DNA from: Candidatus Doudnabacteria bacterium RIFCSPHIGHO2_01_FULL_45_18
GTDB lineage: Bacteria > Patescibacteriota > Doudnabacteria > UBA920 > O2-02-FULL-48-8
NCBI GenBank assembly: GCA_001779915.1
Contig: MFEJ01000007.1
Location: 1-33,045, forward strand
Direction: 5' to 3'
Length of the DNA: 33,045 bases
The notes under the pieces are model-generated. The model did no database searches. It saw only the letters and a program-made list of their open reading frames with translations, and was not told the origin of the DNA. Shown here one piece after another: positions 3,124 through 22,645 of this stretch (position 1 is the first letter of the stretch; each line of letters opens with the position of its first letter). A program made the position numbers and the translations under genes.

Positions 3124-3127
3124 AATC

Positions 3128-5302: not shown

Positions 5303-5316
5303 TTAACCAAAAGCCT

Positions 5317-5432
5317 ATGAAAAATATCTTTACATCGGTCTTGATGCCGTAGTTATCATTGCAGGAGCGATCTTTCTGTCCCAGAATCAATCGCCTGGAA
5401 CGTTTGTTGTTCACCAAAGGGCGGTTTTTTGA
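5317..5432 (+). pseudogene. Decayed N-terminus of a membrane-anchored protein
   Basis: From ATGAAAAATATC the reading frame hits a stop after ten codons. One extra A in the A-run would give MKKYLYIGLDAVVIIAGAIFLSQNQSPGTF and then a short tail to a TGA. This is a charged start, a membrane anchor and a linker much like that of the DUF1573 gene upstream (QPSGTF). The coding sequence is lost after GTF. I read it as the frameshifted stub of a former secreted or anchored gene at the end of the metal operon. Confidence 0.5.
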
Positions 5433-5438
5433 TATCAT
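5424..5438 (+). promoter_or_regulatory. T-tract plus -10 element (TVP38-like gene)
   Basis: GTTTTTTGATATCAT: a six-T run, G, then TATCAT 6 bases before the start ATG. It is the first of four successive genes with the same T6-G-N-TATNAT arrangement. Confidence 0.35.
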
Positions 5439-5444
5439 TTAAGT

Positions 5445-6089: not shown

Positions 6090-6093
6090 CATT

Positions 6094-6105
6094 TTTTGGT
6101 ATAAT
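6094..6105 (+). promoter_or_regulatory. T-tract plus TATAAT promoter element
   Basis: TTTTTTGGTATAAT directly after the TVP38-like stop; ATG of the next gene lies 36 bases downstream. Confidence 0.5.
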
Positions 6106-6141
6106 GAAAACATAACTAACACATAGTCTGCAAGGACCCTT

Positions 6142-6690
6142 ATGCGCAAGATGTTTGAAAAACCCCGAGATATTATGTTATATCAGGAACGGACCGAGGA
6201 GCAAGAATTTGGCCGGGCCAAGAAAGCATACCGGATTTGCAGCAAATGTCGGGCGGTTTATTTTACCAAATCCTGGCATCATATTGACGCCATCGACGTG
6301 GCGAAAATTAAAAAACGTAGCACGCTTTGGGTCACTCGTTGTCCGGCCTGCCAAATGATCGCTGACCACCAGTACGAAGGAGCACTAACGATTAAAGATA
6401 TTCCCAAAAAATTTGCTGATGAATTACTGCATTTGATTAAGGCCTTTAGTAAAAGAGCTTATGAAAAAAATTGCCAGCATCGTTTAATCGCGGTAACGAA
6501 AGAAAGCCAAGACGCGTGGACAGTGACCACCACAGAAAATCAGCTGGCCAGCAAATTGGCAAAAAAAATCAAAGATGTCTTTGACCGAGTGGAACTGAAG
6601 GTCGCTTATTCCAAACAGCCGGATGATGTGGAGCGAATTTTGGTTCGATTCAAGCCTTATTTATCCTTGACCCCGAACAAAAAGCATTAG
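6142..6690 (+). CDS. Zinc-ribbon protein, NMD3/BCAM0308-like
   Basis: 182 residues, soluble and basic. The N-terminal third holds two CxxC pairs, ICSKCRAVYFTKSWHH (about 31-46) and RCPACQM (about 72-78), forming a treble-clef or zinc-ribbon fold as in NMD3-like and BCAM0308-like proteins. The C-terminal half (FADELLHLIKAFSKRAYEKN through VRFKPYL) is alpha/beta. Archaeal and eukaryotic NMD3 acts in ribosomal subunit export; for bacterial relatives the role is unknown, RNA binding being a reasonable guess. It stands alone with its own promoter. Confidence 0.6.
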   Translation: MRKMFEKPRDIMLYQERTEEQEFGRAKKAYRICSKCRAVYFTKSWHHIDAIDVAKIKKRSTLWVTRCPACQMIADHQYEGALTIKDIPKKFADELLHLIKAFSKRAYEKNCQHRLIAVTKESQDAWTVTTTENQLASKLAKKIKDVFDRVELKVAYSKQPDDVERILVRFKPYLSLTPNKKH

Positions 6691-6702
6691 TAAAAGTTAA
6701 TG

Positions 6703-6716
6703 TTTTTTGTTATAAT
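6703..6716 (+). promoter_or_regulatory. T-tract plus TATAAT promoter element
   Basis: TTTTTTGTTATAATTAA, preceded by GTAAAAGTTAA. The same combination recurs before the DUF305 gene at 7119-7176. A weak CATTA/TAATG hairpin with the T-run may also end the preceding gene. Confidence 0.5.
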
Positions 6717-6754
6717 TAAATTAGTCAGATAATTAAGTTGTTGGAAACAAACAT

Positions 6755-7123
6755 ATGTCAAATATGCAAAAAATGGAGTGGGTACTCAAAATCGGGGTAG
6801 CGGGCGAGTTCGTGGGTCATGGAGTTTTTGCGATCCAAGGCAAAAAGGATTGGATTGGCTGGATAGACCGGCTGCTTAATACTGGGGACGCAACCGCGGC
6901 AACTCTATTGATGATTGTCGGAATTATAGACATAGCGATTGCTTTAATCGTCTTGTTCCGACCGGTCAATTGGGTTTTGCTTTGGGCAGCGTTTTGGGGA
7001 CTATGGACGGCCCTGGTCCGGCCGATGATGGGACTTCCGGTATGGGATTTCATCGAGCGCTTTGCCAATTGGGCGGCTCCGCTTGCGCTTTATTATTTTT
7101 ATAACAGAAATAAAAGTCAGTAA
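6755..7123 (+). CDS. Small membrane protein, DoxX-like
   Basis: 122 residues with four hydrophobic segments. The N-terminal VLKIGVAGEFVGHGVFAI resembles the first helix of DoxX-like proteins, and the spacing of the later helices fits a four-helix bundle. No metal or redox motif stands out beyond one His in helix 1. It ends close to a terminator. DoxX relatives are linked to redox and sulfur-stress membrane complexes; here the role is unknown, though the neighbours concern metal handling. Confidence 0.5.
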   Translation: MSNMQKMEWVLKIGVAGEFVGHGVFAIQGKKDWIGWIDRLLNTGDATAATLLMIVGIIDIAIALIVLFRPVNWVLLWAAFWGLWTALVRPMMGLPVWDFIERFANWAAPLALYYFYNRNKSQ

Positions 7124-7131
7124 AAGTTAAA

Positions 7132-7165
7132 AAATCGTCCCGACTGTCGTCGCGGACGATTTTTT
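7132..7165 (+). terminator. Intrinsic terminator fused to the next promoter
   Basis: AAATCGTCC/GGACGATTT stem of 9 bp with a 13-base loop, then TTT. The T-run is only two bases from the next TATAAT. Confidence 0.85.
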
Positions 7166-7173
7166 GTTATAAT
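7160..7173 (+). promoter_or_regulatory. T-tract plus TATAAT promoter element (DUF305 gene)
   Basis: TTTTTTGTTATAAT uses the terminator's own T-run as its upstream half; the DUF305 ATG follows 26 bases later. Confidence 0.55.
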
Positions 7174-7199
7174 TAAGTTATAAGGATTAAGCAAACAGT

Positions 7200-7793
7200 A
7201 TGAATAACGAAAAATTATTATATGGAGTCGCGGGATTAGGGCTGGGTATTATAATAACTTGGATAGTTGCGTCCTCGGGGACACAGATGTTGGGGTCAAG
7301 AAATTCTATGATGACGGATATGGGTGATGTTGATGAGCACTTTATTGACCAAATGATTCCCCACCATGAAGATGCGGTTACTATGTCAGAATTGGCATTG
7401 GTCAAAGCCGAGCATCAGGAGCTTAAGGACCTCGCCCAAAGAATCATTACAGTTCAAAATCAAGAAGTTGAGCAGATGAAACAGTGGCGAAAGGATTGGT
7501 TTGGATTGGGCGGACTGTTGATAAAAGTAGCTTCAGCTCATGGTTTTGAACACGGCTTGAATATGGGGATGATGGGCGACACCTCTGATCTGGAAGAACT
7601 AGAAAATGCCCAACCTTTTGACAAAAAGTTCATTGAAGAAATGATCCCGCATCACCAAATGGCCGTAATGATGGCGCGCATGCTTTTGAACACCACGCAA
7701 CGAACAGAAATGAAAAAATTGGCTAATGACATTGTCTCTAGCCAAAACCAGGAAATCGAACAAATGCGGGCCTGGTACAAAGCGTGGTATTAG
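7200..7793 (+). CDS. Tandem DUF305 protein, membrane-anchored, probably copper-binding
   Basis: 197 residues: an N-terminal membrane anchor (about 7-26), then two DUF305 units. Unit 1 has HFIDQMIPHHEDAV (His55-His56) and a Met/His-rich helix pair; unit 2 has FIEEMIPHHQMAVMMARM (about 145-160). Each ends in a conserved IxxxQNQEVEQMxxW stretch. DUF305 folds as a ferritin-like helical bundle, and the family includes the periplasmic copper-binding protein CopM. The protein is likely extracellular and tethered, buffering copper. The double-unit architecture is known for the family. Confidence 0.8.
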   Translation: MNNEKLLYGVAGLGLGIIITWIVASSGTQMLGSRNSMMTDMGDVDEHFIDQMIPHHEDAVTMSELALVKAEHQELKDLAQRIITVQNQEVEQMKQWRKDWFGLGGLLIKVASAHGFEHGLNMGMMGDTSDLEELENAQPFDKKFIEEMIPHHQMAVMMARMLLNTTQRTEMKKLANDIVSSQNQEIEQMRAWYKAWY

Positions 7794-10213: not shown

Positions 10214-11170
10214 CTATTTGCCTGTTCGATGAAAGTTTTCGTAAACGTCCCGTAGGCGCTTGTTGGTGAGGTGAGTGTAGATTTGCGTTGTTGAGATTGA
10301 TGAGTGGCCAAGCAGTTCCTGGACGGATCGCAGGTCCGCGCCGTTGGTCAGCAGGTCCGTGGCAAAGCTATGCCGTAAAGTATGGGGTGTTATTTTTTTC
10401 ATAATGCCTGCCAGCTTGGCATATTTCTTGATCACGCGCTGAATGGATCGGGCAGTCAGACCAGACATTTGCTCGCTCATGGATTCCAGCTGTTTTTCTA
10501 CCGATTCTTTCGCATCATGTCGGATAAATAGGGCCTTGGAGTTATCTTGCCGCTCTTTTAGATACTGGTTAATAGTTTCGATTGCCCGATGAGACAGAAA
10601 TACTAGGCGCATCTTGTCGCCCTTGCCGCGCACGGCAAATTCGCCTCGTTTGAGGTTTAGATTATCGCGTTTGAGTGCCACCAGTTCGGAAATCCGAAGG
10701 CCAGTGGAGAATAGGGTTTCTAAAATTGCCCGATCGCGAAGCCGGGTCAGTTTGCTTTCTTCATCATCAGTAGCTTTGATTAGTCGTTCCACATCTTCAA
10801 TGTCTAGAAATTCTACAGTGCGAGCTGGTGTCTTGGGCAGTTCAATTTTTTCCGCAGCTAAAGATTTAACGTCTCGTTTCGCCAGGTATTTGAGGAAACT
10901 TCGAAGCGCAATCAAATGATAATTTTGCGTGATGATTTTCAGATTTTTTTCTTTCTGTAACAGGCGATTCAGATGTAGCCGAAACGATCGAACTAGTTCC
11001 AAGTCCACGTCAGATGGATCCGTGACGCCCTGTTTTGCACAAAACTCCACAAATCGTTTTAGATAGTGGTCATAGTTACGTAAAGTGAGCCTGGAGCGAT
11101 TGCGCTCAACTTCCAGGTATTCTAGGAATTGGATGTAGTATTTTTGGAGCTTGCTTTTAGTTTCAGGCAT
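10214..11170 (-). CDS. XerC/XerD-type tyrosine recombinase
   Basis: 318 residues, full family length. The N-terminal SAM-like core-binding domain (about 5-95) is followed by the catalytic domain with all active residues: Arg in STGLRISEL, Lys in the GKGDKMR hairpin, HTLRHSF (His-x-x-Arg), His in LLGHSSISTTQ, and the Tyr nucleophile in IYTH. Xer proteins resolve chromosome dimers at dif; small genomes often keep one copy. It could instead be an integrase, but no attachment site or phage gene is near. A repeat-rich block lies between its start and the DUF559 gene. Confidence 0.9.
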   Translation of the reverse strand: MPETKSKLQKYYIQFLEYLEVERNRSRLTLRNYDHYLKRFVEFCAKQGVTDPSDVDLELVRSFRLHLNRLLQKEKNLKIITQNYHLIALRSFLKYLAKRDVKSLAAEKIELPKTPARTVEFLDIEDVERLIKATDDEESKLTRLRDRAILETLFSTGLRISELVALKRDNLNLKRGEFAVRGKGDKMRLVFLSHRAIETINQYLKERQDNSKALFIRHDAKESVEKQLESMSEQMSGLTARSIQRVIKKYAKLAGIMKKITPHTLRHSFATDLLTNGADLRSVQELLGHSSISTTQIYTHLTNKRLRDVYENFHRTGK

Positions 11171-12832: not shown

Positions 12833-15040
12833 ATGAAGAAAGCAAAGGTAGAGTTAGATCTAGCCGGTAAACCATTTTCTATGGAAACCGGTGAGTTAGC
12901 CATGCAAGCCAACGGTTCTGTCTTGGCTAAACTTGGCGACACAGTCGTGCTCGTCACCGCCGTGATGGGTAAGACCGTGCGCGAAGGCATGGATTATTTT
13001 CCACTCCTCGTGGATTATGAGGAAAGGCTTTATGCCGCTGGGAAAATTAAAGGCTCCAGATTTATCAAACGTGAAGGCCGAGCAACCGACGAAGCCATTC
13101 TTTCCGGCCGTTTGATTGACCGATCCTTGCGGCCACTTTTTCCAGATGGCATGCGGAACGACGTGCAGGTCGTGGCTACGATCCTGTCTGTAGATGAAAT
13201 TAATGATCCGGATATCGTGGCGATCAACGCCGCATCCGTAGCGCTTACCGCATCCGATATTCCATTTGAAGGCCCGATCGCGGCGATGCGAGTTGGCCGC
13301 GTGGACGGGAAATTTGTCGCCAACCCAAATTATCAGGATCGCGAACAAGGGGATTTGGATTTGGTCGTGTCCGGCACAGATGAGCACATCATGATGGTGG
13401 AAGCCGGTGCGAAACAAATCACGGAAAGCGACATGGTCCAAGCAATCAAATTCGCCCAAACTTATCTCAAACAACTGTATAAACTTCAACAAGGCATCAT
13501 CAAACAACTCGCCGTGCCGAAAGCGGAAGCGACTTATGTCTTGCCGGATAAGGATGTTTTGGCCGAAGTCTTAAAGTCCCAACCCCAGCTTGAAAAAGCG
13601 CTATATGGAACTTTCAGCAAAGAAACTCGTGAAAATCAGGTGGAGGCTGTGAAAAAAGAAATTGTTGCCGCGATTGTGGAAAGTTATAAGGACAATAAAG
13701 AAATCAACGGCGAGAAACACGCGAAAATGGCCTTTGATAAATTGCTCAAGAAAACCATTCGTAAAAATATTCTGGAAAAAGAACAACGGGTGGATATGCG
13801 CGCGCTTGATGTCACGAGACCAGTGTCTTGCCAAGTTGGCGTGCTGCCTCGCACCCACGGCTCCGCGCTGTTTAACCGCGGCGAAACTCAAATTTTAACC
13901 ACCGTGACCTTAGGTTCCTCTGGCGATGCGCAGATTTTGGATGGCATGGAAGATTTTGGCGTGGATGGCACAACCAAGCGATACATTCATCATTATAATT
14001 TTCCAGGTTTCAGTGTTGGCGAAGTGGCTCCTATCCGGGGCCCGGGTCGCCGAGAAATCGGCCATGGCGCTTTAGCTGAACGCGCCGTAGAAGTCGTGAT
14101 CCCAGAAAAAGAGAAATTCCCCTACACTCTGCGACTAGTTTCCGAAGCGCTTGGTTCGAACGGCTCTACCTCCATGGGTTCGACCTGTGGTTCAACTCTC
14201 GCGTTGATGGATGCGGGAGTGCCGATCGAAGCCATGATCGGCGGAGTGGCTATGGGCCTGATCCTGGATCCGGAATCCGGTAAGTACAAGGTGCTGACTG
14301 ACATTCAGGGCATCGAAGATGGAAACGGCGACATGGATTTTAAAGTCACTGGTTCGGAAAAAGGGATTACGGCCATGCAAATGGATAACAAGACCAAAGG
14401 ATTGACTGTGGAAATTTTGGATAAAGCGCTCATGCAAGCTCGCGATGGTCGGATGCACATTTTAGATGTCATGAAAAAGACAATCTCGGCGCCGCGCGCG
14501 GAAATGTCCCCGCTCGCTCCAAGAATTGAAACCATGCAGATTAATCCGGAGAAAATCCGCGATGTTATCGGTACTGGCGGCAAGATCATCAACAAAATCA
14601 TTGCGGAAACTGGCGTGAAAATTGACATCGAGGATTCAGGCCTCGTGATGGTTGCCTCCAACAATGCCGAGGGCATGAAAAAAGCCTTAGATTGGATTCA
14701 TAACCTGACTCGTGAGATAAAAATTGGCGAAGTGTTCAAAGGCAAAGTTAACCGCATCATGGACTTCGGTGCTTTTGTGGAGTTGACTCCCGGTCACGAT
14801 GGCTTATGTCATATTTCGGAACTGGCTTGGCATCGAATTGGGAAAGTCGAAGACGTGGTGAAAGTCGGGGATGAGCTGGAAGTGAAAGTGGTGGAAATCG
14901 ATCACATGGGACGGATTAATCTTTCACACAAAATTTTACTGCCTCGCCCCGAAGGTGGCAGCTTTGACGACCGGCCGCATGACCGAGGACCTCGTCGAGA
15001 CGACCACGGCGGTCGTGGTGGTTTCCGACCAAGACACTAG
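12833..15040 (+). CDS. pnp: Polyribonucleotide nucleotidyltransferase (PNPase)
   Basis: 735 residues, slightly over the usual length. Two RNase PH domains (about 10-220 and 310-540) flank a helical linker; then come a KH domain with IGTGGKIINKI (about 580) and an S1 domain (GEVFKGKVNRIMDFGAFVEL, about 640). The second RNase PH core has the GGVAMGLILD and DFKVTGSEKGITAMQMD motifs that hold the phosphorolytic site. The enzyme degrades RNA 3' to 5' and can add tails. The last 30 residues are rich in Arg, Gly and Asp, a tail likely to bind RNA or partners. AAAGGGAC precedes the ATG. Confidence 0.98.
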   Translation: MKKAKVELDLAGKPFSMETGELAMQANGSVLAKLGDTVVLVTAVMGKTVREGMDYFPLLVDYEERLYAAGKIKGSRFIKREGRATDEAILSGRLIDRSLRPLFPDGMRNDVQVVATILSVDEINDPDIVAINAASVALTASDIPFEGPIAAMRVGRVDGKFVANPNYQDREQGDLDLVVSGTDEHIMMVEAGAKQITESDMVQAIKFAQTYLKQLYKLQQGIIKQLAVPKAEATYVLPDKDVLAEVLKSQPQLEKALYGTFSKETRENQVEAVKKEIVAAIVESYKDNKEINGEKHAKMAFDKLLKKTIRKNILEKEQRVDMRALDVTRPVSCQVGVLPRTHGSALFNRGETQILTTVTLGSSGDAQILDGMEDFGVDGTTKRYIHHYNFPGFSVGEVAPIRGPGRREIGHGALAERAVEVVIPEKEKFPYTLRLVSEALGSNGSTSMGSTCGSTLALMDAGVPIEAMIGGVAMGLILDPESGKYKVLTDIQGIEDGNGDMDFKVTGSEKGITAMQMDNKTKGLTVEILDKALMQARDGRMHILDVMKKTISAPRAEMSPLAPRIETMQINPEKIRDVIGTGGKIINKIIAETGVKIDIEDSGLVMVASNNAEGMKKALDWIHNLTREIKIGEVFKGKVNRIMDFGAFVELTPGHDGLCHISELAWHRIGKVEDVVKVGDELEVKVVEIDHMGRINLSHKILLPRPEGGSFDDRPHDRGPRRDDHGGRGGFRPRH

Positions 15041-15047
15041 TTAGCTT

Positions 15048-15072
15048 GTCATTCTGAGCGAAGCGAAGAATC
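15048..15072. repeat. GTCATTCTGAGCGAAGCGAAGAATC repeat
   Basis: A single copy of a short repeat I know from many unrelated bacterial genomes, here between pnp and its terminator. Confidence 0.6.
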
Positions 15073-15080
15073 TATCCGAA

Positions 15081-15110
15081 AAAAATAGACCTAAGCGATT
15101 AGGTCTGTTT
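15081..15110. terminator. Bidirectional terminator between convergent genes
   Basis: AGACCTAA-GCGA-TTAGGTCT, a perfect 8-bp stem with T-runs on both strands, serving pnp and the minus-strand gene 15116-15397. Confidence 0.9.
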
Positions 15111-15115
15111 TGTTG

Positions 15116-15397
15116 CTAGAGACGAAAGAGTTTTCCTTGCCCGGGGATTGTCCGCCTCCGATAGGGTTTCTTGGGCAGGGCTGGACCGCGATTGGACATA
15201 ACGGGAGCCGCGAAATAGCCGGCTCGTTTTTCTTTGACTTCTGACGCAAGCTCACGGTTGGATCTGGCGTCATGCCGCCACCAGAAGTTAGTCCGGGCCT
15301 GACCTGGGGAAACTGCCTGCGTGCCGCCGATGACGCGGCCTTTTTCGTCTTTGATCACGAATGGGATCTTGGTCTTCCGTTTGGATTTGTGTGCCAC
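15116..15397 (-). CDS. Hypothetical basic protein (93 aa), single-gene unit
   Basis: I chose the GTG at 15397 (MAHKSKRKTKIPF) because AAAGGAGG lies 7 bases before it; the track's GTG two codons earlier is too close to that site. The protein is strongly basic and largely hydrophilic: KSKRKTK, FWWRHDARSNRELASEVKEKRAGYF, KKPYRRRTIPGQGKLFRL. Nucleic-acid or ribosome binding is plausible from charge alone. No family recognised. It converges on pnp with a shared terminator, and its ribosome-binding site sits in a CCCC/GGGG hairpin. Confidence 0.65.
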   Translation of the reverse strand: MAHKSKRKTKIPFVIKDEKGRVIGGTQAVSPGQARTNFWWRHDARSNRELASEVKEKRAGYFAAPVMSNRGPALPKKPYRRRTIPGQGKLFRL

Positions 15398-15402
15398 TCG
15401 CA

Positions 15403-15418
15403 CCCCTCCTTTGGGGAG
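15403..15418 (-). promoter_or_regulatory. Hairpin overlapping the ribosome-binding site
   Basis: On the minus strand CTCCCC-AAA-GGAGGGG places AAAGGAGG in the loop and 3' stem. Confidence 0.4.
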
Positions 15419-15454
15419 TTTGACAGAACATATTTTAGCAGATAATTTGTCTTT

Positions 15455-15727
15455 ATGAAAGATACAAGGATGACCAAAGGATTTGGATTAATTGGGCTGC
15501 TTATTACCATGGCGATTATCGCCCTGCTGGCGTTCGGCGGATACTATTATAATGGTGAGCAGAAGCAAAATCAGATTGAGGCTGGACGTAGCGCGGTGGA
15601 TGCCGCGCAAGACGCGGCCGATGCCCAGAACCAGTACAATCAAAATCTAGAAACTGATCTGAAAAATTCCGACGCCCCCTGGATCAACTACCACTCCGTC
15701 CAGGATAATCTAGATGAGATTGAATAA
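15455..15727 (+). CDS. Type IV pilin-like protein lacking Glu5
   Basis: 90 residues. MTKGFGLIGLLITMAIIALLAFGGYYY has the prepilin pattern: a short basic leader, Gly before the cleavage point, a Phe-first mature end and a long hydrophobic helix. The usual Glu at mature position 5 is Gly. A helical, Ala/Gln/Asn-rich stretch (about 40-70) and an acidic tail follow. At this size it could be a minor pilin or simply an anchored helical protein. No pilus assembly genes are in the window. It ends in a terminator. Confidence 0.5.
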   Translation: MKDTRMTKGFGLIGLLITMAIIALLAFGGYYYNGEQKQNQIEAGRSAVDAAQDAADAQNQYNQNLETDLKNSDAPWINYHSVQDNLDEIE

Positions 15728-15752
15728 AAAACGGCCAGAAATAGCTGTTTTT
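15726..15752 (+). terminator. Intrinsic terminator
   Basis: AAAACGGC/GCTGTTTT (one G-T pair), loop CAGAAATA, trailing T's; overlaps the stop of the pilin-like gene. Confidence 0.75.
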
Positions 15753-15777
15753 AATGGCTCAACCGCACGGTTGAGGC
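15751..15777 (+). repeat. 27-bp hairpin repeat, family B copy 1 (island left end)
   Basis: TTAATGGCTCAACCG-CA-CGGTTGAGGC, with a perfect 8-bp stem. An inverted copy with three loop-region differences lies at 19043-19069; the two bracket the restriction-modification island. Confidence 0.75.
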
Positions 15778-15820
15778 GTTGATTTATTAAGCGATTCGTG
15801 GAATAATTAAGAATACTAAT

Positions 15821-16411
15821 ATGAATTATATTAAGCTTGAAAATTTGTTTCGTGATTTTATAATGTTATTTGGAGGGTTTGGTTTTTTGCTTGTTTTATA
15901 CTATGGCCAATTTGTATTTCATAATCAAACAATTTTTGAACTTTTATTCGTTGAGAACCTTGCAAAAGAGTGGACGTGGGACAAATTAAATTTAACTGTT
16001 TTAGTTATTATTTCATATTTTGTTGGTCGACTACTTCTTTTAACCGGAAAAATGCTATTCTATTTTCTTTCCCGTATCGTTAAAGATAATAAGAAAAGTC
16101 AAAATTTTTTTCCATTTTATCGCGGCGAACGTGCCAAAATACTACATGAATACTTAGGTGAATATAGACATGATGATTTAAGACAATATTGGGAAAGAGA
16201 AATATATGCTGAAGTGATTTTGTTTTTATTTTTTGCCGCAAGTTTTTGGTATTTTATTTTTTCTGTAGTTGCAAATAAACCGTCATGCTTCTGGTTAATT
16301 TCTTTAATTTTATTCGTCTTATTCGGTTGGTTTAAAATAATCAGGACTTCTTATATCCGAGAGTTTGAGGATGCCATTTGTCAGTCACAAGACAATCATA
16401 TAAATAAGTAA
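15821..16411 (+). CDS. Hypothetical membrane protein (196 aa) of the AT-rich island
   Basis: Four membrane helices, at about 12-30, 58-85, 128-150 and 155-175, with a charged cytoplasmic loop between the second and third (RGERAKILHEYLGEYRHDDLRQYWEREIY). No recognised family. Base composition is markedly AT-richer than the housekeeping genes, like the methylase and nuclease that follow, which argues for shared horizontal origin. It is separated from them by a strong terminator, so it is its own transcript. Confidence 0.6.
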   Translation: MNYIKLENLFRDFIMLFGGFGFLLVLYYGQFVFHNQTIFELLFVENLAKEWTWDKLNLTVLVIISYFVGRLLLLTGKMLFYFLSRIVKDNKKSQNFFPFYRGERAKILHEYLGEYRHDDLRQYWEREIYAEVILFLFFAASFWYFIFSVVANKPSCFWLISLILFVLFGWFKIIRTSYIREFEDAICQSQDNHINK

Positions 16412-16444
16412 AATTTGACTTTTTGGGAAATGGGAGTACAATTA

Positions 16445-16458
16445 ATTCACATGTGAAT
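16445..16458. promoter_or_regulatory. 14-bp perfect palindrome upstream of the methylase
   Basis: ATTCACATGTGAAT. It could be an operator, but no controller (C) protein is encoded nearby. Confidence 0.3.
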
Positions 16459-16463
16459 AACTC

Positions 16464-16489
16464 AATAGCGGCAAAACGCCGCTATTTTT
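16464..16489 (+). terminator. Intrinsic terminator
   Basis: AATAGCGGC-AAAAC-GCCGCTATT, 9-bp perfect stem, then TTTG. Confidence 0.9.
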
Positions 16490-16502
16490 GTTTACAATTA
16501 TT

Positions 16503-16511
16503 TGATATAAT
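16503..16511 (+). promoter_or_regulatory. Extended -10 of the methylase (leaderless start)
   Basis: TGATATAAT; transcription would begin about 7 bases on, at the ATG at 16518. Confidence 0.5.
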
Positions 16512-16517
16512 ATGGAT

Positions 16518-17504
16518 ATGAATGCTCAAACAAAAAAAAGAAGTCTAGGACAATTCTTTACGAAACAAAACACATGGCTTAGGCCCCAAATTACTCAATT
16601 TATCAAATCTAGTGGGGCAAAAATTGCTTATGATCCCTTTGCTGGCAACGGGGACTTATTAGGCATTGCCCAAAGTTTTGGCTTAAAAAAAGTTTTTGGT
16701 TTGGATATTGATCCAGCCCTTGGTTGGAAGAAGAATGATAGTTTGATATCAATTCCAAAAATCCATAAATCTATCATCATTACTAATCCGCCGTACTTGA
16801 CAAATTATAGCGCTCAAAGAAAAAAAATATATGATAAAGTGAGTCAATATTTTGAAGCTTGTAATTATGATGACTTATACCAACTTGCTTTAGAAAAATG
16901 TTTGACTAACGATTATGGGGTTGTAATCATTCCTGAAACATTTATCAATTCTAGTTTTCCTAAAAATCGACTAGTCAGCATTACAATCCTAGAAGATAAC
17001 CCATTTGATGATACTGAAACTCCTGTTTGTGTGGTTTGTTTTGATAATAAATTAAAATCTTTAGATAAAGTTTCTGTTTATAAAAATGATAAATTATTAG
17101 GCACTCTTGGATACTTTGAAAAATTTCGTATTGCACCCAATAATTCAATAGATATTAAATTTAATATTGTTAATGGAAAAATCGGACTTCGAGCAGTGGA
17201 CACCACTGATCCACACAGACCAATTTCTTTTATGCCGAAAAATGAGCTAGATTATGATTTGAAAGGAATCAAGCATAGTTCCCGCTTGATTACAATTATT
17301 GACATGCCCACTAATAAACATGGTATGCATTACATAATTAAAAAGAGCAATCAGATCTTAACCGAGTTCCGCAAAAAAACTCATGATGTTTTACTTTCTC
17401 CATTTAAAGGGAATAAAAAAAATGGCGAACGAAGAAGGCGTCTAGATTATGCCACTGCTAGAGCGATTCTTGAACAAGCAGTAAGTAATGAGAGACTATT
17501 TTAA
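16518..17504 (+). CDS. Type II N6-adenine DNA methyltransferase
   Basis: 328 residues from the ATG at 16518 (MNAQTKKRSLGQFFTK). The track's ATG at 16512 directly abuts the TATAAT and could not be in the transcript. Motif I, AYDPFAGNGDLL (about 36-47), binds S-adenosylmethionine; LDIDPA follows; motif IV is TNPPYL (about 91-96), typical for N6-adenine methylation. The C-terminal part with LSPFKGNKKNGERRRRLD likely helps target recognition. It protects host DNA from the nuclease encoded next, which starts on the shared base of TAATG. AT-rich, probably acquired by transfer. Confidence 0.85.
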   Translation: MNAQTKKRSLGQFFTKQNTWLRPQITQFIKSSGAKIAYDPFAGNGDLLGIAQSFGLKKVFGLDIDPALGWKKNDSLISIPKIHKSIIITNPPYLTNYSAQRKKIYDKVSQYFEACNYDDLYQLALEKCLTNDYGVVIIPETFINSSFPKNRLVSITILEDNPFDDTETPVCVVCFDNKLKSLDKVSVYKNDKLLGTLGYFEKFRIAPNNSIDIKFNIVNGKIGLRAVDTTDPHRPISFMPKNELDYDLKGIKHSSRLITIIDMPTNKHGMHYIIKKSNQILTEFRKKTHDVLLSPFKGNKKNGERRRRLDYATARAILEQAVSNERLF

Positions 17505-18472
17505 TGACAAATCTTGAGCTGTTTGAATACTCCCTAAAAAATCCAGAGCCTCTCATTGATGAGGCTTATGTTAAGTCAGAGAATATAATTCTTGCAAAAT
17601 ATGGAAAAAAACCTAATAAATTAATGGTCACTAATATTGAGCTCTTGGAGAATATTGTAGCTTATAAGGTTGCCCTCAAGTCCGGGAATTCAAAAGCATT
17701 AAGAGAAGCTATCGATAATATTCGTGTATGTCTAAAAACAACTGGTATCAATTATTCAGAATTTCCTAGTTTTTGGGCGGTTACTGATGTATCCCACAGT
17801 AGTTATAAGAAGTTGTCAGAGAGCGAACAAATAGAATTTCTTGAAAATGTTCTAAAGAAGTACATTAAACACAGGCATCCAATATATTCAGGGTACGGCT
17901 ATACTCACAGCACTTTACAGGTTGGCAAGGACGCAAAGGCTCATAAACAGAGCGGCGTTTTGGGAATTAAAAAAGTTTGCAGCATTCTAAATAAAAAAAG
18001 ATTTCATGCTTTAGGGGATTTAAGCCTTAAGAATTTGAAGGCAAAAAATTTAGTTTATATAAGTACTGATAAAACTGGTAAAAAGTTGTTTAAAGAAATT
18101 ATAAAACAATATAGTATTAGTTTTATGTGGGGTAAAAAATCAGATGATAAGATGCCTGATATTCTATTTAAAATTAAAAACCATTTTTTTATTGTTGAAC
18201 ACAAACATATGAAGGAAGGGGGAGGTGGACAGAATAAACAGATAAATGAAGTAATAAAATTTATTAGTTACTCTGAGCCTAGGTCAAGCAAGAGGATCCA
18301 TTACATCACATTTCTAGACGGTTTATATTTTAATCTGCTTAACAGAACTTTCAAGAAAAAGAGTAAAGTCCCAACCCAAGTTGCAAATATAAAAAAGGCT
18401 CTTCGACAGAACGAAAATAACTACTTTGTTAACACCGCCGGATTCAAAGAATTACTAGAACAAGTAATATGA
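17504..18472 (+). CDS. Type II restriction endonuclease, PD-(D/E)XK-like
   Basis: 322 residues. It overlaps the methylase stop by one base (TAATG), the usual coupling in type II systems. Around residue 217 PDILFKIKNHFFIVEHKHMKE gives the PD...EHK catalytic pattern; EGGGGQNKQINEVI follows, a segment I associate with restriction enzymes of this class. The N-terminal 200 residues are helical and include a Tyr/His-rich part (KHRHPIYSGYGYTHS). The recognition site cannot be predicted. AT-rich like the methylase. Confidence 0.75.
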   Translation: MTNLELFEYSLKNPEPLIDEAYVKSENIILAKYGKKPNKLMVTNIELLENIVAYKVALKSGNSKALREAIDNIRVCLKTTGINYSEFPSFWAVTDVSHSSYKKLSESEQIEFLENVLKKYIKHRHPIYSGYGYTHSTLQVGKDAKAHKQSGVLGIKKVCSILNKKRFHALGDLSLKNLKAKNLVYISTDKTGKKLFKEIIKQYSISFMWGKKSDDKMPDILFKIKNHFFIVEHKHMKEGGGGQNKQINEVIKFISYSEPRSSKRIHYITFLDGLYFNLLNRTFKKKSKVPTQVANIKKALRQNENNYFVNTAGFKELLEQVI

Positions 18473-18490
18473 AAACAATCATTGTATTTT

Positions 18491-18712
18491 ATGTTGCTTG
18501 ACTTTGCCTCATATGTTTTGTTAGTTATGATTTTTTATGACTTTTCTTTACATTTTATAGAATTGATGGGGTGGCAAAGGTTCTTTGTCCCTCGGAGGAA
18601 TATATTTTCCTATTATTGGCCGGTGCCGAATAATCGAAAAAATTATACAATATTTTGGACAGCATATTGGGGGATAGCTTTTGTTCTGTTGCTGATTTAT
18701 GCTTGTAATTAA
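18491..18712 (+). CDS. Small membrane protein (73 aa)
   Basis: I prefer the ATG at 18491 (MLLDFASYVLLVM) to the track's TTG three codons earlier. Two membrane helices flank a polar loop, WQRFFVPRRNIFSYYWPVPNNRKNYTIFW. I recall similar Trp/Tyr-rich two-helix proteins in other Patescibacteria but no named family. It lies 18 bases after the nuclease and 8 before the next gene, so it may belong to either transcript. Confidence 0.55.
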   Translation: MLLDFASYVLLVMIFYDFSLHFIELMGWQRFFVPRRNIFSYYWPVPNNRKNYTIFWTAYWGIAFVLLLIYACN

Positions 18713-18720
18713 CTAATTTT

Positions 18721-19041
18721 ATGGCACCAATAATTTATATTGCAATTGGGTTTTTGTTTGGGGTAGCATTTGCCAAGTGGCGGTTTGATTCCCAGATGCG
18801 AGCGCATCCTGCCGTTAAACATAAAATTATCAACCCGGCTCAAATGGAAAGCCGGCAGGAGAATTTGGAGAAGATTTTGGAATTACTCAAACAACATGAC
18901 GAACTGACGAATGATATTGTTGAGAAAGCGCTCGGGGTTTCGGACGCGACAGCCGAGCGATATTTGCAGGAACTGGAAAGTCAGGGCAAATTGACCCAAG
19001 TCGGCCAGCGCGGCAAATATGTTATTTATAAAGCAGTTTAA
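18721..19041 (+). CDS. Membrane-anchored winged-helix protein
   Basis: 106 residues: an N-terminal helix (APIIYIAIGFLFGVAFA, about 2-18), a linker, then a winged helix (about 45-105) of DeoR/FaeA type: NLEKILELLKQHDELTNDIVEKALGVSDATAERYLQELESQGKLTQVGQRGKYVIYK. The recognition helix is GVSDATAERYLQEL. A DNA-binding domain tied to the membrane is unusual but seen in Patescibacteria. Its base composition is higher in GC than the methylase and nuclease, although it lies inside the same repeat-bracketed segment. Confidence 0.7.
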   Translation: MAPIIYIAIGFLFGVAFAKWRFDSQMRAHPAVKHKIINPAQMESRQENLEKILELLKQHDELTNDIVEKALGVSDATAERYLQELESQGKLTQVGQRGKYVIYKAV

Positions 19042-19042
19042 A

Positions 19043-19069
19043 GCCTCAACCACACGGTTGAGCCATTAA
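19043..19069 (-). repeat. 27-bp hairpin repeat, family B copy 2 (island right end)
   Basis: GCCTCAACCACACGGTTGAGCCATTAA, the inverted counterpart of 15751-15777 (24 of 27 bases). It starts one base after the winged-helix stop and ends at the base before the GIY-YIG start codon. Confidence 0.75.
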
Positions 19070-19345
19070 ATGTACCATCTCTATATTCTCAAGTGTGTGG
19101 ATCGGACTTTATATACTGGCATCACAGTTGATCTTGCGCGTCGAGTCAGAGAACACAACTCAACCAAGCTCGGCGCCAAATATACCTTCAGCAGAAGGCC
19201 CGTAAAACTTGTTTACTCAAAAAGATTTAGAACTAAATCTCCCGCCCTGAAGGCCGAATATCGAATCAAACAATTATCCCGCAAGGAAAAATTAAAGCTT
19301 ATAAAATCCAAAAGGCTCGAAACTGGCTCGAGCCTCGCAATGTAA
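19070..19345 (+). CDS. GIY-YIG nuclease, UPF0213 (YhbQ-like)
   Basis: 91 residues, standard length. MYHLYILKCVDRTLYTGITVDLARRVREHN carries the two GIY-YIG half-motifs (LYI and YTG), then the Arg pair; the catalytic Glu is in ALKAEYRIKQLSRKEKLKLI. These stand-alone nucleases resemble homing enzymes. The start codon directly follows the family B hairpin. The C-terminal residues (KRLETGSSLAM) are encoded by a palindrome, AGGCTCG/CGAGCCT, plus CCTCGCAATG, the end of the family A repeat. The gene is thus built into repeat sequence at both ends. Confidence 0.85.
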   Translation: MYHLYILKCVDRTLYTGITVDLARRVREHNSTKLGAKYTFSRRPVKLVYSKRFRTKSPALKAEYRIKQLSRKEKLKLIKSKRLETGSSLAM

Positions 19346-19396
19346 ATTTGTAATAGTAGATAATAGTCCGCCGACAATAATTGATACTTGTCTCAG

Positions 19397-19417
19397 GAAA
19401 ACCGGGGTTGTCCCCGG
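19397..19417 (-). terminator. Terminator of the minus-strand gene 19495-19704
   Basis: CCGGGG-ACAA-CCCCGG followed by TTTT on the minus strand. Confidence 0.75.
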
Positions 19418-19423
19418 AAACTA

Positions 19424-19446
19424 ACAGACCCGATGTCTGCGTTTTT
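19424..19446 (+). terminator. Terminator downstream of the GIY-YIG gene
   Basis: CAGAC-CCGAT-GTCTG, then CGTTTTT. Confidence 0.65.
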
Positions 19447-19494
19447 GGTTCTACCTGCGTTCACCTCCTTGGTGATTGTTGCGGTTTGTTCAGT

Positions 19495-19704
19495 CTATCC
19501 TCGACGCTGAACGTTGGTGACGTTGCCGTCGCCATCACGCGTGACCTGGATGTCGTTGGGTCCCATGCCGTTTGGCACAGGCCAGCTGGTTTCCGGTCGG
19601 GAGGACTCCCGGACCGAGTTGTCCGGGTTGTACGTGACCGAGTGGCCGGAGTCGTTCCGGTCCGTGTGCGAGCCGTCGCCGTGGTGTTCGACTGTCTTTC
19701 CCAT
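19495..19704 (-). CDS. Hypothetical hydrophilic protein (69 aa), single-gene unit
   Basis: The ATG is preceded by AAGGAGG at 6 bases. The protein is almost entirely polar: HHGDGSHTDRNDSGHS, YNPDNSVRESSRPETSWPVPNG, DIQVTRDGDGNVTNVQRRG. It has no hydrophobic core of note and may be disordered, or a beta-rich repeat piece. No family recognised. It has a consensus promoter (TTGACA-17-TAGATT) and terminator of its own, and its ribosome-binding site lies in an ACCC/GGGT hairpin. Confidence 0.6.
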   Translation of the reverse strand: MGKTVEHHGDGSHTDRNDSGHSVTYNPDNSVRESSRPETSWPVPNGMGPNDIQVTRDGDGNVTNVQRRG

Positions 19705-19708
19705 GATG

Positions 19709-19724
19709 ACCCTCCTTAGGGGGT
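19709..19724 (-). promoter_or_regulatory. Hairpin enclosing the ribosome-binding site
   Basis: On the minus strand ACCCCCTAAGGAGGGT folds with ACCC/GGGT at its base, AAGGAGG in loop and stem. Confidence 0.4.
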
Positions 19725-19743
19725 ATCAATATGGGTTTACGAA

Positions 19744-19764
19744 TTGGAAGCAGGATTGCTTCCA
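19744..19764. repeat. Perfect hairpin in the divergent intergenic region
   Basis: TTGGAAGC-AGGAT-TGCTTCCAA type stem of 8-9 bp between the minus-strand promoter and its gene, in that gene's leader. Confidence 0.5.
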
Positions 19765-19769
19765 ACAAT

Positions 19770-19798
19770 AATCTATTATTTTTATCTATATTTGTCAA
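19770..19798 (-). promoter_or_regulatory. Promoter of the minus-strand gene 19495-19704
   Basis: On the minus strand TTGACA, 17 bases, TAGATT. Confidence 0.6.
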
Positions 19799-19813
19799 TG
19801 GTCGTTTTTAGTA

Positions 19814-19842
19814 TTGACAAATCTTCGGTAGAGGTGTAGACT
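19814..19842 (+). promoter_or_regulatory. Promoter of the plus-strand gene 19909-20196
   Basis: TTGACA, 17 bases, TAGACT; diverges from the promoter at 19770-19798 and shares its TTGACAAAT start. Confidence 0.65.
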
Positions 19843-19908
19843 GTGCAGTTGCATGTCAAAGGTATTAGGGCAGCAATTCAACGCGGTTTTTTTTGAGGAG
19901 GAGACAGT

Positions 19909-20196
19909 ATGGTCTACGAGAGTCAGTCCGAGACAAGCGAGGTTGAGGTAGAGGTGATTGCGCTCCCAGAGGGCGCATTCCACGTCGCCTCATTCATCAA
20001 CGGCATCGCGTACGAGGCCAGCCGACAGGATTTCAACTTGAAGGCGATTGGGATCATGATCGGCGATTTGCACAGCCGGACTCGGCAAGACGCGATCAGA
20101 GCTTTCGAGACCCAGATGGTCCGCGAGAGCCTCGAAGTCATCCGCCGCCGGCTTCCAGGAGTGCACCGGCATCTGTTGGCCCTGACCAGCCTCTAA
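19909..20196 (+). CDS. Hypothetical protein (95 aa), single-gene unit
   Basis: GAGGAGG stands 7 bases before the ATG. The protein begins with an acidic stretch (ESQSETSEVEVEVIALPEG) and continues as amphipathic helices (FHVASFINGIAYEASRQDFNLKAIGIMIGDLHSRTRQ ... SLEVIRRRLPGVHRHLL). It is probably a small soluble helical protein. No family recognised. It has a consensus promoter upstream and a long-stem terminator directly downstream. Confidence 0.65.
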   Translation: MVYESQSETSEVEVEVIALPEGAFHVASFINGIAYEASRQDFNLKAIGIMIGDLHSRTRQDAIRAFETQMVRESLEVIRRRLPGVHRHLLALTSL

Positions 20197-20221
20197 GACA
20201 GCCGGTCGGCGCCAGGTTTTC

Positions 20222-20258
20222 AAAGAGCGGGTTGCTGCGCAACTCGCTCTTTCTTTTT
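20222..20258 (+). terminator. Strong intrinsic terminator
   Basis: AAAGAGCGGGTTGC-TGC-GCAACTCGCTCTTT, 14-position stem with one mismatch, then CTTTTTG. Confidence 0.9.
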
Positions 20259-20259
20259 G

Positions 20260-20300
20260 TATGCCAACAGGTTGACAATCGGATTTTGTTGGCATATTTT
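20260..20300 (+). promoter_or_regulatory. Promoter within a 10-bp inverted repeat (metalloprotease gene)
   Basis: TTGACA, 17 bases, TATTTT. A perfect inverted repeat TATGCCAACA ... TGTTGGCATA encloses the -35 and reaches into the -10, a position suited to a repressor site. Confidence 0.6.
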
Positions 20301-20321
20301 ATATATATAATGACACAATTT

Positions 20322-21113
20322 ATGATAAAAAAACTCTCTATCTTTGCTTGTCTTTTCTCATTTTTAGTGGCTTTTCCCACTCTTGCTCAATCCACCGGAA
20401 GAACTTTAACTTTGCCAGAGGCGGCTGAACACTCGGCAGTGATTGCTTTGGGCAGCGCCATTGACCCCAAAACTGGAAGTGTGGTAGAAGGATTTATGTT
20501 TGTGGATTATCAGAATGAAAATGCCAAATCCGGCAATGCCCGATCCAACCAACCATCCGGCAATAGTTGCTATGCCTTTTTGGCCAAGGGTGCGAAATGG
20601 AAAACCGTTGAGCCTTGGCTTGTGAATCCCACTAATAGTCGGGGCTTAGATCAAACGTTTGTGTTCAATAATACACAAACTGATATTGCGAAATGGAATG
20701 TTTCAGCTGGAGTCACGATTTTAGGCACCGGGAGCAGCACTTCAGACACTCTTGCGGTCGACACGACCAGTCCTGATGGATCGAACGAAGTTTATTTCGC
20801 TGATGTGAGCACCCAGGGAGTAATTGCAGTCACCACGGTCTGGGGAATATTCTCTGGTCCCACATTCAATCGCCGGTTAGTTGAATGGGACATGGTGATT
20901 GATGATACGGATTTTGACTGGTCAAGCAGCGGTGAGGCTGGTAAAATGGATTTTGAAAATATCATAACTCATGAATTGGGGCATGCCGCGGGCATGGGGC
21001 ATCCGTCCGATTCGTGTCCCGAGGAAACCATGTTCCGGTTTGCAGACAATGGTGAGACGAAGAAGCGGACACTAAATACCGGCGACATTGCCGGCATCCA
21101 GACGCTGTACTAA
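20322..21113 (+). CDS. Secreted matrixin-like metalloprotease
   Basis: I chose ATG 20322 (MIKKLSIFACLFSFLVAFPTLAQS), which begins a typical signal peptide; ATG 20310 is possible, while the track start lies upstream of the promoter. The mature protein of about 240 residues has a beta-rich N-terminal part and ends in the zinc site ITHELGHAAGMGHP (HExxHxxGxxH) followed by a Met-turn (EETMFRF), as in M10/matrixin peptidases. No pro-domain Cys switch is clear. Downstream GDIAGIQTLY matches the usual C-terminal helix. Acts outside the cell on unknown substrates. Confidence 0.8.
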   Translation: MIKKLSIFACLFSFLVAFPTLAQSTGRTLTLPEAAEHSAVIALGSAIDPKTGSVVEGFMFVDYQNENAKSGNARSNQPSGNSCYAFLAKGAKWKTVEPWLVNPTNSRGLDQTFVFNNTQTDIAKWNVSAGVTILGTGSSTSDTLAVDTTSPDGSNEVYFADVSTQGVIAVTTVWGIFSGPTFNRRLVEWDMVIDDTDFDWSSSGEAGKMDFENIITHELGHAAGMGHPSDSCPEETMFRFADNGETKKRTLNTGDIAGIQTLY

Positions 21114-21125
21114 TAATTTAAGATC

Positions 21126-21160
21126 AGAAAAGGGGCAATTACCGGCTCCTTTTCTTTTTG
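21126..21160 (+). terminator. Terminator of the metalloprotease gene
   Basis: AGAAAAGG/CCTTTTCT stem with inner GC pairs, then TTTTTG. Confidence 0.85.
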
Positions 21161-21189
21161 GAAAAAAAAGCCAGACTCATGGTCCGGCT
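21161..21189 (-). terminator. Terminator of the minus-strand gene 21177-21413
   Basis: On the minus strand AGCCGGAC/GTCTGGCT (one mismatch) then eight T's; the stem includes the gene's stop codon. Confidence 0.8.
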
Positions 21190-21413
21190 TGGGTGCGTGC
21201 CTGTTGCTCAAGTTCCGCGATTCTTGCTTGCGCGGCTTGGCGATACGTCTCATGCAGGGTATTGCTCGTCGCGAAAGTCTGCAGAAACTTGAGATCGTCA
21301 ATGCGACGTATGGCTTTGACGCGTGTCTTCGGTGAGTGATTGCCGTTGGTGGCTTGATACTTGAGCTCATCTTGCGTCACGAACGTGGGAATCCGTCTTC
21401 TGACACCCGGCAT
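21177..21413 (-). CDS. Hypothetical helical protein (78 aa), single-gene unit
   Basis: ATG preceded by AGGAGG at 4 bases. After a basic N-terminus (MPGVRRRIPTF) the sequence has HEAT/ARM-like helical phrasing: RVKAIRRIDDLKFLQTFATSNTLHETYRQAAQARIAELEQQ. This resembles a single HEAT-type unit (AA..I.D...L...A......R.AA...I..L), but one unit is too little for firm assignment. It has its own promoter and terminator; its ribosome-binding site is partly buried in a hairpin. Confidence 0.6.
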   Translation of the reverse strand: MPGVRRRIPTFVTQDELKYQATNGNHSPKTRVKAIRRIDDLKFLQTFATSNTLHETYRQAAQARIAELEQQARTQAGP

Positions 21414-21417
21414 GAAA

Positions 21418-21437
21418 CCTCCTACTGGTTAGCAGGA
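21418..21437 (-). promoter_or_regulatory. Hairpin overlapping the ribosome-binding site
   Basis: On the minus strand TCCTGCT-AACC-AGTAGGA (7 pairs, one G-U) includes the first four bases of AGGAGG. Confidence 0.45.
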
Positions 21438-21466
21438 AGTTTATCAGAATAGTGGGCCTGTGTAAA
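21438..21466 (-). promoter_or_regulatory. Promoter of the minus-strand gene 21177-21413
   Basis: On the minus strand TTTACA, 17 bases, TAAACT. Confidence 0.55.
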
Positions 21467-21486
21467 TACTAATTGTCTCGTTTTGC

Positions 21487-21495
21487 TGATATACT
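21487..21495 (+). promoter_or_regulatory. Extended -10 of tgt
   Basis: TGATATACT ends 7 bases before the tgt ATG, implying a leaderless or nearly leaderless transcript. Confidence 0.45.
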
Positions 21496-21502
21496 ATGCT
21501 CA

Positions 21503-22645
21503 ATGTTTACCATTACTAAAAAAGATCCGCAGTCTAAAGCGCGGACCGGTGTCATCAAAACCGCGCATGGGGAAGTCCAGACACCCGTGTTTTTACCAAT
21601 TGGCACGAAAGGGGCGATCAAATCCATCGCGGCCGAGGAACTCAAATTCTGGGGCGCGGAAATGATTTTGGCCAACACGTATCATCTCTGGCTTAGGCCT
21701 GGGGATGCTTTGATTGCGAAAGCCGGGGGCTTACATAAATTTATGAATTGGAAAGACGCGATTTTTACGGACTCCGGCGGCTTTCAAGTTTTTTCACTTG
21801 GCAAAATGGTGAAAGTAAACGAACAAGGCGTCAAATTTCAATCTGACCTGGATGGCTCGACCCACATTCTTACTCCCGAAATTTCCGTTCAGATTCAGCT
21901 GAATTTGGGATCAGACATTGCGGTGGTGTTGGATGAGTTTCCGGGATTTCCCGCGACCGAAAAACAGGCTGAGCTTTCCGTGAAGCGTACAACCGCGTGG
22001 GCCAAGCGCGCGATTCACGAGCACGTAAAACTTTTGGCAGGTTCAATCAACCCAGGGCAAATGCAATGGGGCATTGTGCAAGGTTCAACTTATAAACATT
22101 TACGAAAGCAAGCGGCCGAAGAAATTGTGGGTTTAGGATTTAAAGGTTTTTGTATTGGCGGGGTGGCCGTGGGTGAGCCAGAAGAACAGATGTTTCAGGC
22201 CGTCAATGATGCGATTCCACACTTGCCCGAAGATTCACCCAAGCATTTGCTTGGGGTCGGAACACCAGCGCAAATTGTTGCCGCCGTGGCCCTTGGTTGC
22301 GACAGTTTTGATTGCGTGATCCCAACACGCGAGGCGCGGCATGGGAAATTTTATGCGAACCTAAAACCCCAAGATGGGGAGGGGTACTACACTTTAAATA
22401 TCATGAATGAAAAATTTAAAGAAGACTTTTCTCCAATTGATAACACTTGCAACTGCTATGCTTGCGGTAATTTTACGCGCGCTTATATCCGGCATTTGTT
22501 TATGTCAGACGAACCTTTGGGAATCCGCCTTGCCACCATGCACAACCTGCGATTTTATCTAAATCTCATGCAACGGATCCGAGAGAACATCGAAACAGAA
22601 AAATTCGGGGAGTTTGTAACACAATACAAAGAGCACAAAATGTGA
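21503..22645 (+). CDS. tgt: Queuine/preQ1 tRNA-guanine transglycosylase
   Basis: The start is ATG 21503 (MFTITKKDPQSKARTG), matching the family N-terminus; the track start ten codons upstream precedes the probable transcription start. 380 residues, full length. The enzyme swaps guanine-34 for preQ1 in tRNAs with GUN anticodons. Seen: TDSGGFQVFSL with the first catalytic Asp, VVLDEFPGF, GGVAVGE, a second Asp region (CDSFDCVIPTREARHGKFY) and the zinc site CNCYACGNFTRAYIRHL. No other queuosine gene is in the window, so preQ1 or queuine may be salvaged. Confidence 0.97.
   Translation: MFTITKKDPQSKARTGVIKTAHGEVQTPVFLPIGTKGAIKSIAAEELKFWGAEMILANTYHLWLRPGDALIAKAGGLHKFMNWKDAIFTDSGGFQVFSLGKMVKVNEQGVKFQSDLDGSTHILTPEISVQIQLNLGSDIAVVLDEFPGFPATEKQAELSVKRTTAWAKRAIHEHVKLLAGSINPGQMQWGIVQGSTYKHLRKQAAEEIVGLGFKGFCIGGVAVGEPEEQMFQAVNDAIPHLPEDSPKHLLGVGTPAQIVAAVALGCDSFDCVIPTREARHGKFYANLKPQDGEGYYTLNIMNEKFKEDFSPIDNTCNCYACGNFTRAYIRHLFMSDEPLGIRLATMHNLRFYLNLMQRIRENIETEKFGEFVTQYKEHKM

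Follow-up and report, generated by a model that had tools for sequence, protein, structure and literature searches.

What are two short hairpins doing on either side of a set of restriction–modification (RM) genes? The window analysed here, a 33-kb contig (G000:C7) from a Doudnabacteria-group Patescibacteria genome of 0.56 Mb, poses this question, and a first-pass annotation had answered it by proposing that an RM island moved as a unit, perhaps with the hairpins as its recombination or transposition ends. The two repeat copies, their positions and the genes enclosed by them were all described correctly; our analysis points away from the proposed role and towards the gene that immediately precedes the right hairpin and encodes a small protein with a predicted transmembrane (TM) helix and a winged-helix (wHTH) domain. 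The three features on which the argument turns are the following.

15751–15780, no strand: left palindrome, TTTAATGGCTCAACCGCACGGTTGAGGCGTTGA, with mismatched arms (outer AATGG, inner AACGC)
19040–19069, no strand: right palindrome, TTTAAAGCCTCAACCACACGGTTGAGCCATTAAA, with the outer arm AATGG
18721–19041, + strand: protein of 106 aa with a TM helix and a DeoR/ArsR-type wHTH domain, last gene before the right hairpin

The copies had been characterised as inverted relative to each other, and a repeat search does align 15750–15780 with 19040–19070 in inverted orientation (31 nt, 87% complementary). However, each copy is itself palindromic about the core CTCAACC-N4-GGTTGAG, and the pair also aligns as direct repeats (15750–15780 with 19037–19067, 84% identical), so their mutual inversion is uninformative. 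The outer arms of the two copies match (TTTAATGG/CCATTAAA), and the right palindrome, whose left edge shares bases with the wHTH stop codon, finishes immediately 5' of the start codon of a GIY-YIG gene. A search for the same repeat elsewhere finds the exact core only twice in the genome, and 16 copies once the pattern is relaxed to the family described below. By our own arithmetic, 16 uniformly placed sites yield about 1.4 chance pairs within 3.3 kb; because related palindromes are scattered genome-wide in such numbers, two of them 3.3 kb apart are expected by chance.

Both hairpins are members of a family of short palindromes dispersed in some Patescibacteria genomes. The members are built from inverted half-sites with a CTCA/TGAG core, a spacer of 2–14 bp and genome-specific outer bases. 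Palindromes of the form GGCTCAACC-loop-GGTTGAG were found in eight of the 49 genomes of the order, with a maximum of 25 in genome G123, and controls with the reversed pattern returned none. Among 47 copies aligned in their genomic context the stem core is near-invariant, the loops are variable and the genome-specific outer arms change in matched fashion (AATGG/CCATT, AAAGG/CCTTT, AACACC/GGTGTT); the most variable outer position is paired in 95% of copies against 38% after shuffling, an upper estimate because the collection rule favours paired arms. These copies are mostly intergenic and located at gene ends, rarely between divergent genes. At times copies lie within genes of the order's genomes (lepA, tsaC, ychF, alr and murI), the first four of which are occupied in the window's own genome. 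Here lepA (L292:11167-11200) and ychF (L316:3756-3790), both essential GTPase genes, carry an identical 28-bp imperfect palindrome that encodes NASSKVEPL; in lepA it replaces, with no change in length, the IHSRMMVD-type sequence of the G005 orthologue.

The palindrome family goes with the wHTH gene across the phylum, in unrelated families. The same 380 Patescibacteria genomes were scanned with a generic palindrome pattern and with a profile built from 13 wHTH homologues, and the profile was found in 34 of them. Thirteen of the 14 genomes with at least eight palindromes carry the wHTH gene (Fisher 2.7e-14), the exception being G343. Within families, at least five palindromes are present in 14/26 wHTH-positive compared to 1/66 wHTH-negative genomes, and 200,000 within-family permutations produced no case as extreme (p<5e-6). 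The pattern was designed on the order of the window, and the families outside it that are represented by G168 and G189, by G113 and G128, and by G347 are independent tests: these genomes hold 12–23 palindromes, their wHTH-less relatives 0–3. The association extends to the position of individual copies, most wHTH homologues having a palindrome of this type behind them. At 15 loci a strict palindrome lies no more than 100 nt from the stop codon of the wHTH gene, often overlapping it, for which the chance expectation is about 0.002 per locus at 20 sites/Mb. Two further wHTH loci have a palindrome with a longer spacer and five have variant stems.

The AlphaFold2 model of the protein comprises the TM helix (residues 3–25), a second helix (39–58) and the wHTH domain (60–105), the latter at a predicted local distance difference test score (pLDDT) above 90; in structure it is closest to eS25 and to proteins of the ArsR type, CadC among them. 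The winged helix is probably cytoplasmic, judging by basic residues that follow the TM helix, and the recognition-helix motif SxATAxRYL is near-invariant amongst the homologues. A mobile element of phages was rejected, as IMG/VR yields no match to the wHTH profile and the 22 palindrome matches there are all single and none is accompanied by a wHTH gene. Simple duplication within genomes was rejected too, since wHTH paralogues group by genome in G168 only.

The remaining features of the locus concern the genes between the palindromes and their surroundings.

15041–21472, + strand: hypervariable hotspot holding all of the features, between pnp (12833–15040) and tgt (21473–22645)
15821–16411, + strand: AT-rich membrane protein, cargo, without a family match
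16512–17504, + strand: Eco57I-type N6-adenine methyltransferase, cargo (PF07669, E=9e-6)
17504–18472, + strand: Tsp45I-like type II restriction enzyme, cargo (PF06300, E=5e-5)
18491–18712, + strand: small membrane open reading frame that closes the AT-rich cargo on its 3' side, read directly from the sequence
19070–19345, + strand: GIY-YIG nuclease-domain gene beginning right after the right palindrome, with a host-like guanine–cytosine (GC) content of 0.42

The methylase and restriction enzyme genes are adjacent, as in type II RM systems of the Tsp45I/Eco57I type. The match of the restriction enzyme is weak (23.4 bits against a Pfam cut-off of 25), and its assignment is backed by the parallel locus of G128, where the Tsp45I match is strong (E=4e-62). 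Methyltransferase homologues occur in G138 (63%) and in G128, in the latter adjoining a wHTH gene. The closest homologues of the RM pair as a whole (63%/50%) reside in G138 (L075:7890-9876), a member of a distant Patescibacteria family, and palindromes are absent there; none of the ten relatives fetched for the pnp–tgt region has the RM genes. The interval between pnp and tgt is an insertion hotspot that is hypervariable across the family (0.28 to >6 kb): it measures 0.28 kb in G004, 0.7 kb in G002 and 3.8 kb in G012, or contains 6–7 kb of unrelated genes, between conserved flanks that include rpsO-pnp on the upstream side and tgt and glyS on the downstream side. In agreement with part of the first-pass annotation, the RM genes are foreign and the right hairpin is linked to a gene inside the bracket; the RM genes constitute an ordinary insertion in this hotspot; the type II RM cargo is in itself nothing new.

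Several other genes of the window deserve mention. The GIY-YIG gene starting at 19070 had been overlooked; relatives of it (64–68%) lie in synteny within the pnp–tgt hotspot of G007 and G008, where the palindrome is absent, and these copies, together with three other GIY-YIG copies without a hairpin in the window's own genome, rule out that the hairpin is tied to this gene. A matrixin-type metalloprotease gene (20232–21113) is also located inside the hotspot. A XerC/D-like tyrosine recombinase is encoded near rpsO-pnp (10214–11170) and is found near rpsO in G006 too, and four similar boxes (TTTTTTGTTATAATTAA) upstream of successive genes at 5425–7180 are probably a promoter motif.

Did the wHTH gene travel with this cargo? 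The block of AT-rich sequence spans 15782–18720 (GC 0.29–0.33), whereas the wHTH gene at 18721–19041 has a GC of 0.445 and a GC at third codon positions (GC3) of 0.47, like host genes. The composition jump that had been described thus holds at the left hairpin; on the right it falls at about 18720, 320 bp inside the repeat, and because the wHTH and GIY-YIG genes show host GC the right repeat does not mark a composition boundary. Since its composition is host-like, the wHTH gene probably did not arrive together with the RM genes, contrary to the idea that the segment moved as a unit. Most units combine AT-rich cargo with a host-like wHTH gene (wHTH versus cargo GC of 0.45 vs 0.29–0.33 in the window, 0.57 vs 0.35–0.39 in G168, 0.50 vs 0.37–0.42 in G128 and 0.46 vs 0.34 in G008), and in G008 the wHTH gene occupies the same pnp hotspot with other cargo and with the GIY-YIG gene further on. 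Taken together, the composition and the arrangement in G008 point less to one unit moving whole than to a resident wHTH gene with foreign operons settling upstream of it.

The cargo is varied, and the wHTH gene often closes the 3' end of AT-rich defence operons. Upstream of it are found an Eco57I-type methylase, a Tsp45I enzyme and a SIR2-like gene in G128; an N6/N4 methylase with a TdeIII enzyme in G168; an EcoRI-type methylase with a GmrSD-HNH enzyme and then, in a second unit with its own wHTH gene, a UvrD-like helicase in G239; ResIII helicases in G209 and G168; a cyclic-oligonucleotide-based antiphage signalling system (CBASS) with SMODS synthase, E2-like protein and single-TM effector in G003; a ProA/Hhe-like antiphage helicase in G247; and RhuM/Fic, HicA and patatin in G335, G108 and G253, respectively. 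The wHTH loci of G113, G126 and G150 are without a defence gene. In one other genome the bracketed arrangement of the window recurs: contig C10 of G168 (L247) has the order hairpin, methyltransferase, TdeIII, PsbP, wHTH, hairpin. Three further observations concern these loci: in G239 (C14, L243) positions 976–7330 hold successive units that each close with a wHTH gene and a palindrome of identical spacer; the EcoRI-methylase/GmrSD-HNH operon there encodes a 369-aa protein without a Pfam or PADLOC match (L243:3462-4571); and in the pnp hotspot of G008 (C21, L062:8328-10790) the wHTH gene is preceded by an AT-rich gene for an 820-aa protein without a match in Pfam, PADLOC or NCBIfam, a candidate for an undescribed defence gene.

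The best explanation, which on the sequence evidence we judge about evenly poised between right and wrong, is that the palindromes are recognition sites of the membrane-anchored wHTH protein and that the RM island is cargo upstream of it. Recognition by this protein is the simplest account because of the co-occurrence, the palindrome next to the gene itself, and the near-invariance of both recognition helix and CTCA/TGAG core. The protein, probably a dimer whose N-terminal helices anchor it to the cytoplasmic side of the membrane, would recognise the palindrome that follows its own gene together with about 10–40 others, mostly at operon ends, and these chromosomal sites may thereby be tethered or insulated, akin to Noc sites or to plasmid centromeres beside the gene of their binding protein. 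Tethering is suggested by the membrane anchor, as in Noc (PMC4331003). The RM genes would have entered the pnp–tgt hotspot between a resident left palindrome and a resident wHTH–palindrome pair, and other defence operons may have made the same upstream entry independently in other genomes. DNA recognition, membrane tethering and this order of events are what we infer from the comparisons above.

Several observations weigh against this explanation. A spacer range of 2–14 bp is not tolerable for a rigid dimer on duplex DNA, and given such variable spacers it is possible that a hairpin of single-stranded DNA or RNA is recognised, or that recognition is flexible; the covariation of the outer pairs fits a folded stem no less than a symmetric operator. 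Between 7 and 11 palindromes occur in G006 and G343 with no wHTH gene detected in assemblies that are 79% and 93% complete, respectively, and in roughly half of the genomes with a wHTH gene palindromes of the pattern are few, some of these genomes having variant motifs and some only long or weak homologues. Finally, in the G239 unit the wHTH gene, cargo and locus are equally AT-rich, and the models of a resident gene and of a moving unit are not separated there.

Amongst the alternatives, a site-specific cassette survives best, and we still regard it as unlikely. Here a circular wHTH–defence element with one palindrome would integrate at a resident palindrome and generate hybrid attL and attR palindromes, perhaps through a host Xer recombinase with the wHTH protein as directionality factor; wHTH excisionases such as RdfS are known (PMC11963761). 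Joined together, the outer arms in the window make up a palindrome without mismatches (TTTAATGGCTCAACC/GGTTGAGCCATTAAA), and there is a partial match between the inner arms (AAGC/AACGC), yet arm mismatches also occur in copies that enclose nothing (lepA, ychF, tsaC). Bracketed units are present in G168 C10, G239 has its successive units with identical spacers and G247 has near-identical 28-mers on both sides, but the G128 pair encloses the wHTH gene only, with the RM genes outside, spacers vary unlike those of tyrosine-recombinase sites, and the composition of wHTH gene and cargo differs at most loci. No clean empty site was seen among relatives, which are too divergent to show one: between G006 and G005, of the same genus, intergenic regions are too diverged to compare, and homology at the pnp site ends at the palindrome edge.

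Rather improbable is a second alternative, in which the palindromes are selfish repeats resembling repetitive extragenic palindromic (REP) sequences, spread by an unknown enzyme and gathered at gene ends by purifying selection, with the wHTH protein as regulator or helper. By the criteria of PMC12306157 they are multi-copy extragenic palindromes with a common motif, some copies being intragenic, and as in systems of REP and REP-associated tyrosine transposase (RAYT) they are short, dispersed in genome-specific dialects, mostly at gene 3' ends, with one copy beside a dedicated gene; lepA and ychF even have an identical 28-bp copy in common. The partner here is, by contrast, a membrane-anchored wHTH protein without catalytic residues, and the Y1 transposase (Y1_Tnp, PF01797) is absent in four of the eight carrier genomes (G000, G006, G108 and G343), on which ground a RAYT/REP system as such is rejected. 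The lepA copy substitutes sequence at unchanged length relative to G005, and spacers are mostly unlike between copies.

It is improbable that the palindromes are intrinsic terminators only, of which wHTH genes happen to keep one. The palindromes follow stop codons or separate convergent genes and very seldom separate divergent ones, which agrees with this; the stem sequence, however, is conserved across families, and the U-tract that should accompany a GC stem is short or absent, with only short T runs downstream (TGAGCCATTAAATG, TGAGGCGTTCACT). In several cases a separate hairpin resembling a terminator precedes the palindrome (window 15728–15750, G006 2921–2947 and the G123 wHTH locus), other copies lie in coding regions, and their presence tracks one gene.

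The composite element with hairpin transposon ends originally put forward is the least credible. Two similar palindromes do flank foreign RM genes and the left GC boundary coincides, but the right boundary does not, no target duplication was seen, no transposase lies inside the bracket (Y1 is absent genome-wide; other transposase families were not searched genome-wide), and the palindromes occur as single dispersed copies without RM genes in the eight carrier genomes, and the G138 RM homologue is hairpin-free. A dispersed repeat and RM genes elsewhere without it, the outcome that the first-pass annotation had itself named as speaking against transposition, is largely what was found.

Of the known systems, Noc and its binding sites (NBS), SlmA and its binding sites (SBS) and MatP/matS share with the present case tens of dispersed palindromic sites and one DNA-binding protein that reaches the membrane, as described for Noc (PMC4331003) and for the lipid contact of MatP (PMC6538776). 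The fold here is a different one, with a true TM helix, a patchy horizontal distribution, a variable spacer, a site directly 3' of the protein's own gene and a neighbourhood of defence operons. A Noc/SlmA-like tether would bind both the dispersed palindromes and the membrane; the TM helix and wHTH domain are predicted, and palindrome binding is inferred from co-occurrence. Plasmid centromeres provide a parallel for the gene arrangement, the cognate site being located just downstream of the gene for the DNA-binding protein in P1 (parS after parB) and in TubR/tubC, where TubR is an ArsR-like winged helix; in contrast, no ParA/TubZ partner was seen here and the sites are chromosomal and dispersed. 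Rickettsia palindromic elements and DNA uptake sequences likewise have copies that are tolerated inside essential genes and paired inverted copies at gene ends. The lepA copy differs from the former in being an in-place replacement rather than an insertion, and uptake sequences are ruled out by the minority of unpaired half-sites (most of the 61 half-sites in G123, and 21 of 22 in fetched loci, are paired). Integron attC sites, which have R and L boxes, exceed about 55 bp and require an IntI-type integrase, are ruled out as the palindrome sites measure about 20–40 bp and the recombinase of the window is XerC/D-like, not an integron integrase.

Tentatively, and as a proposal slightly more apt to fail than to hold, the wHTH protein and the genome-wide palindromes may form a two-part system of Patescibacteria that has spread together, transposase-free, into unrelated lineages, marks where foreign defence operons stop on their 3' side, and organises or insulates the chromosome or regulates those operons. 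The repeat family and its partner gene appear to be undescribed in the papers searched, and amongst open-access papers none was found on palindromic repeats of such kind in Patescibacteria. Dispersed palindromes are usually orphans; here, throughout an uncultured phylum and in independent lineages, their presence can be predicted from one small gene, with a copy at its stop codon. What a repeat family does can thereby be put to a direct in vitro test, as binding between protein and sequence, and there is an entry point to how ultra-small episymbionts organise their chromosomes. As the wHTH gene recurs 3' of RM, CBASS, ResIII and antiphage-helicase clusters, it is also a marker for new defence operons.

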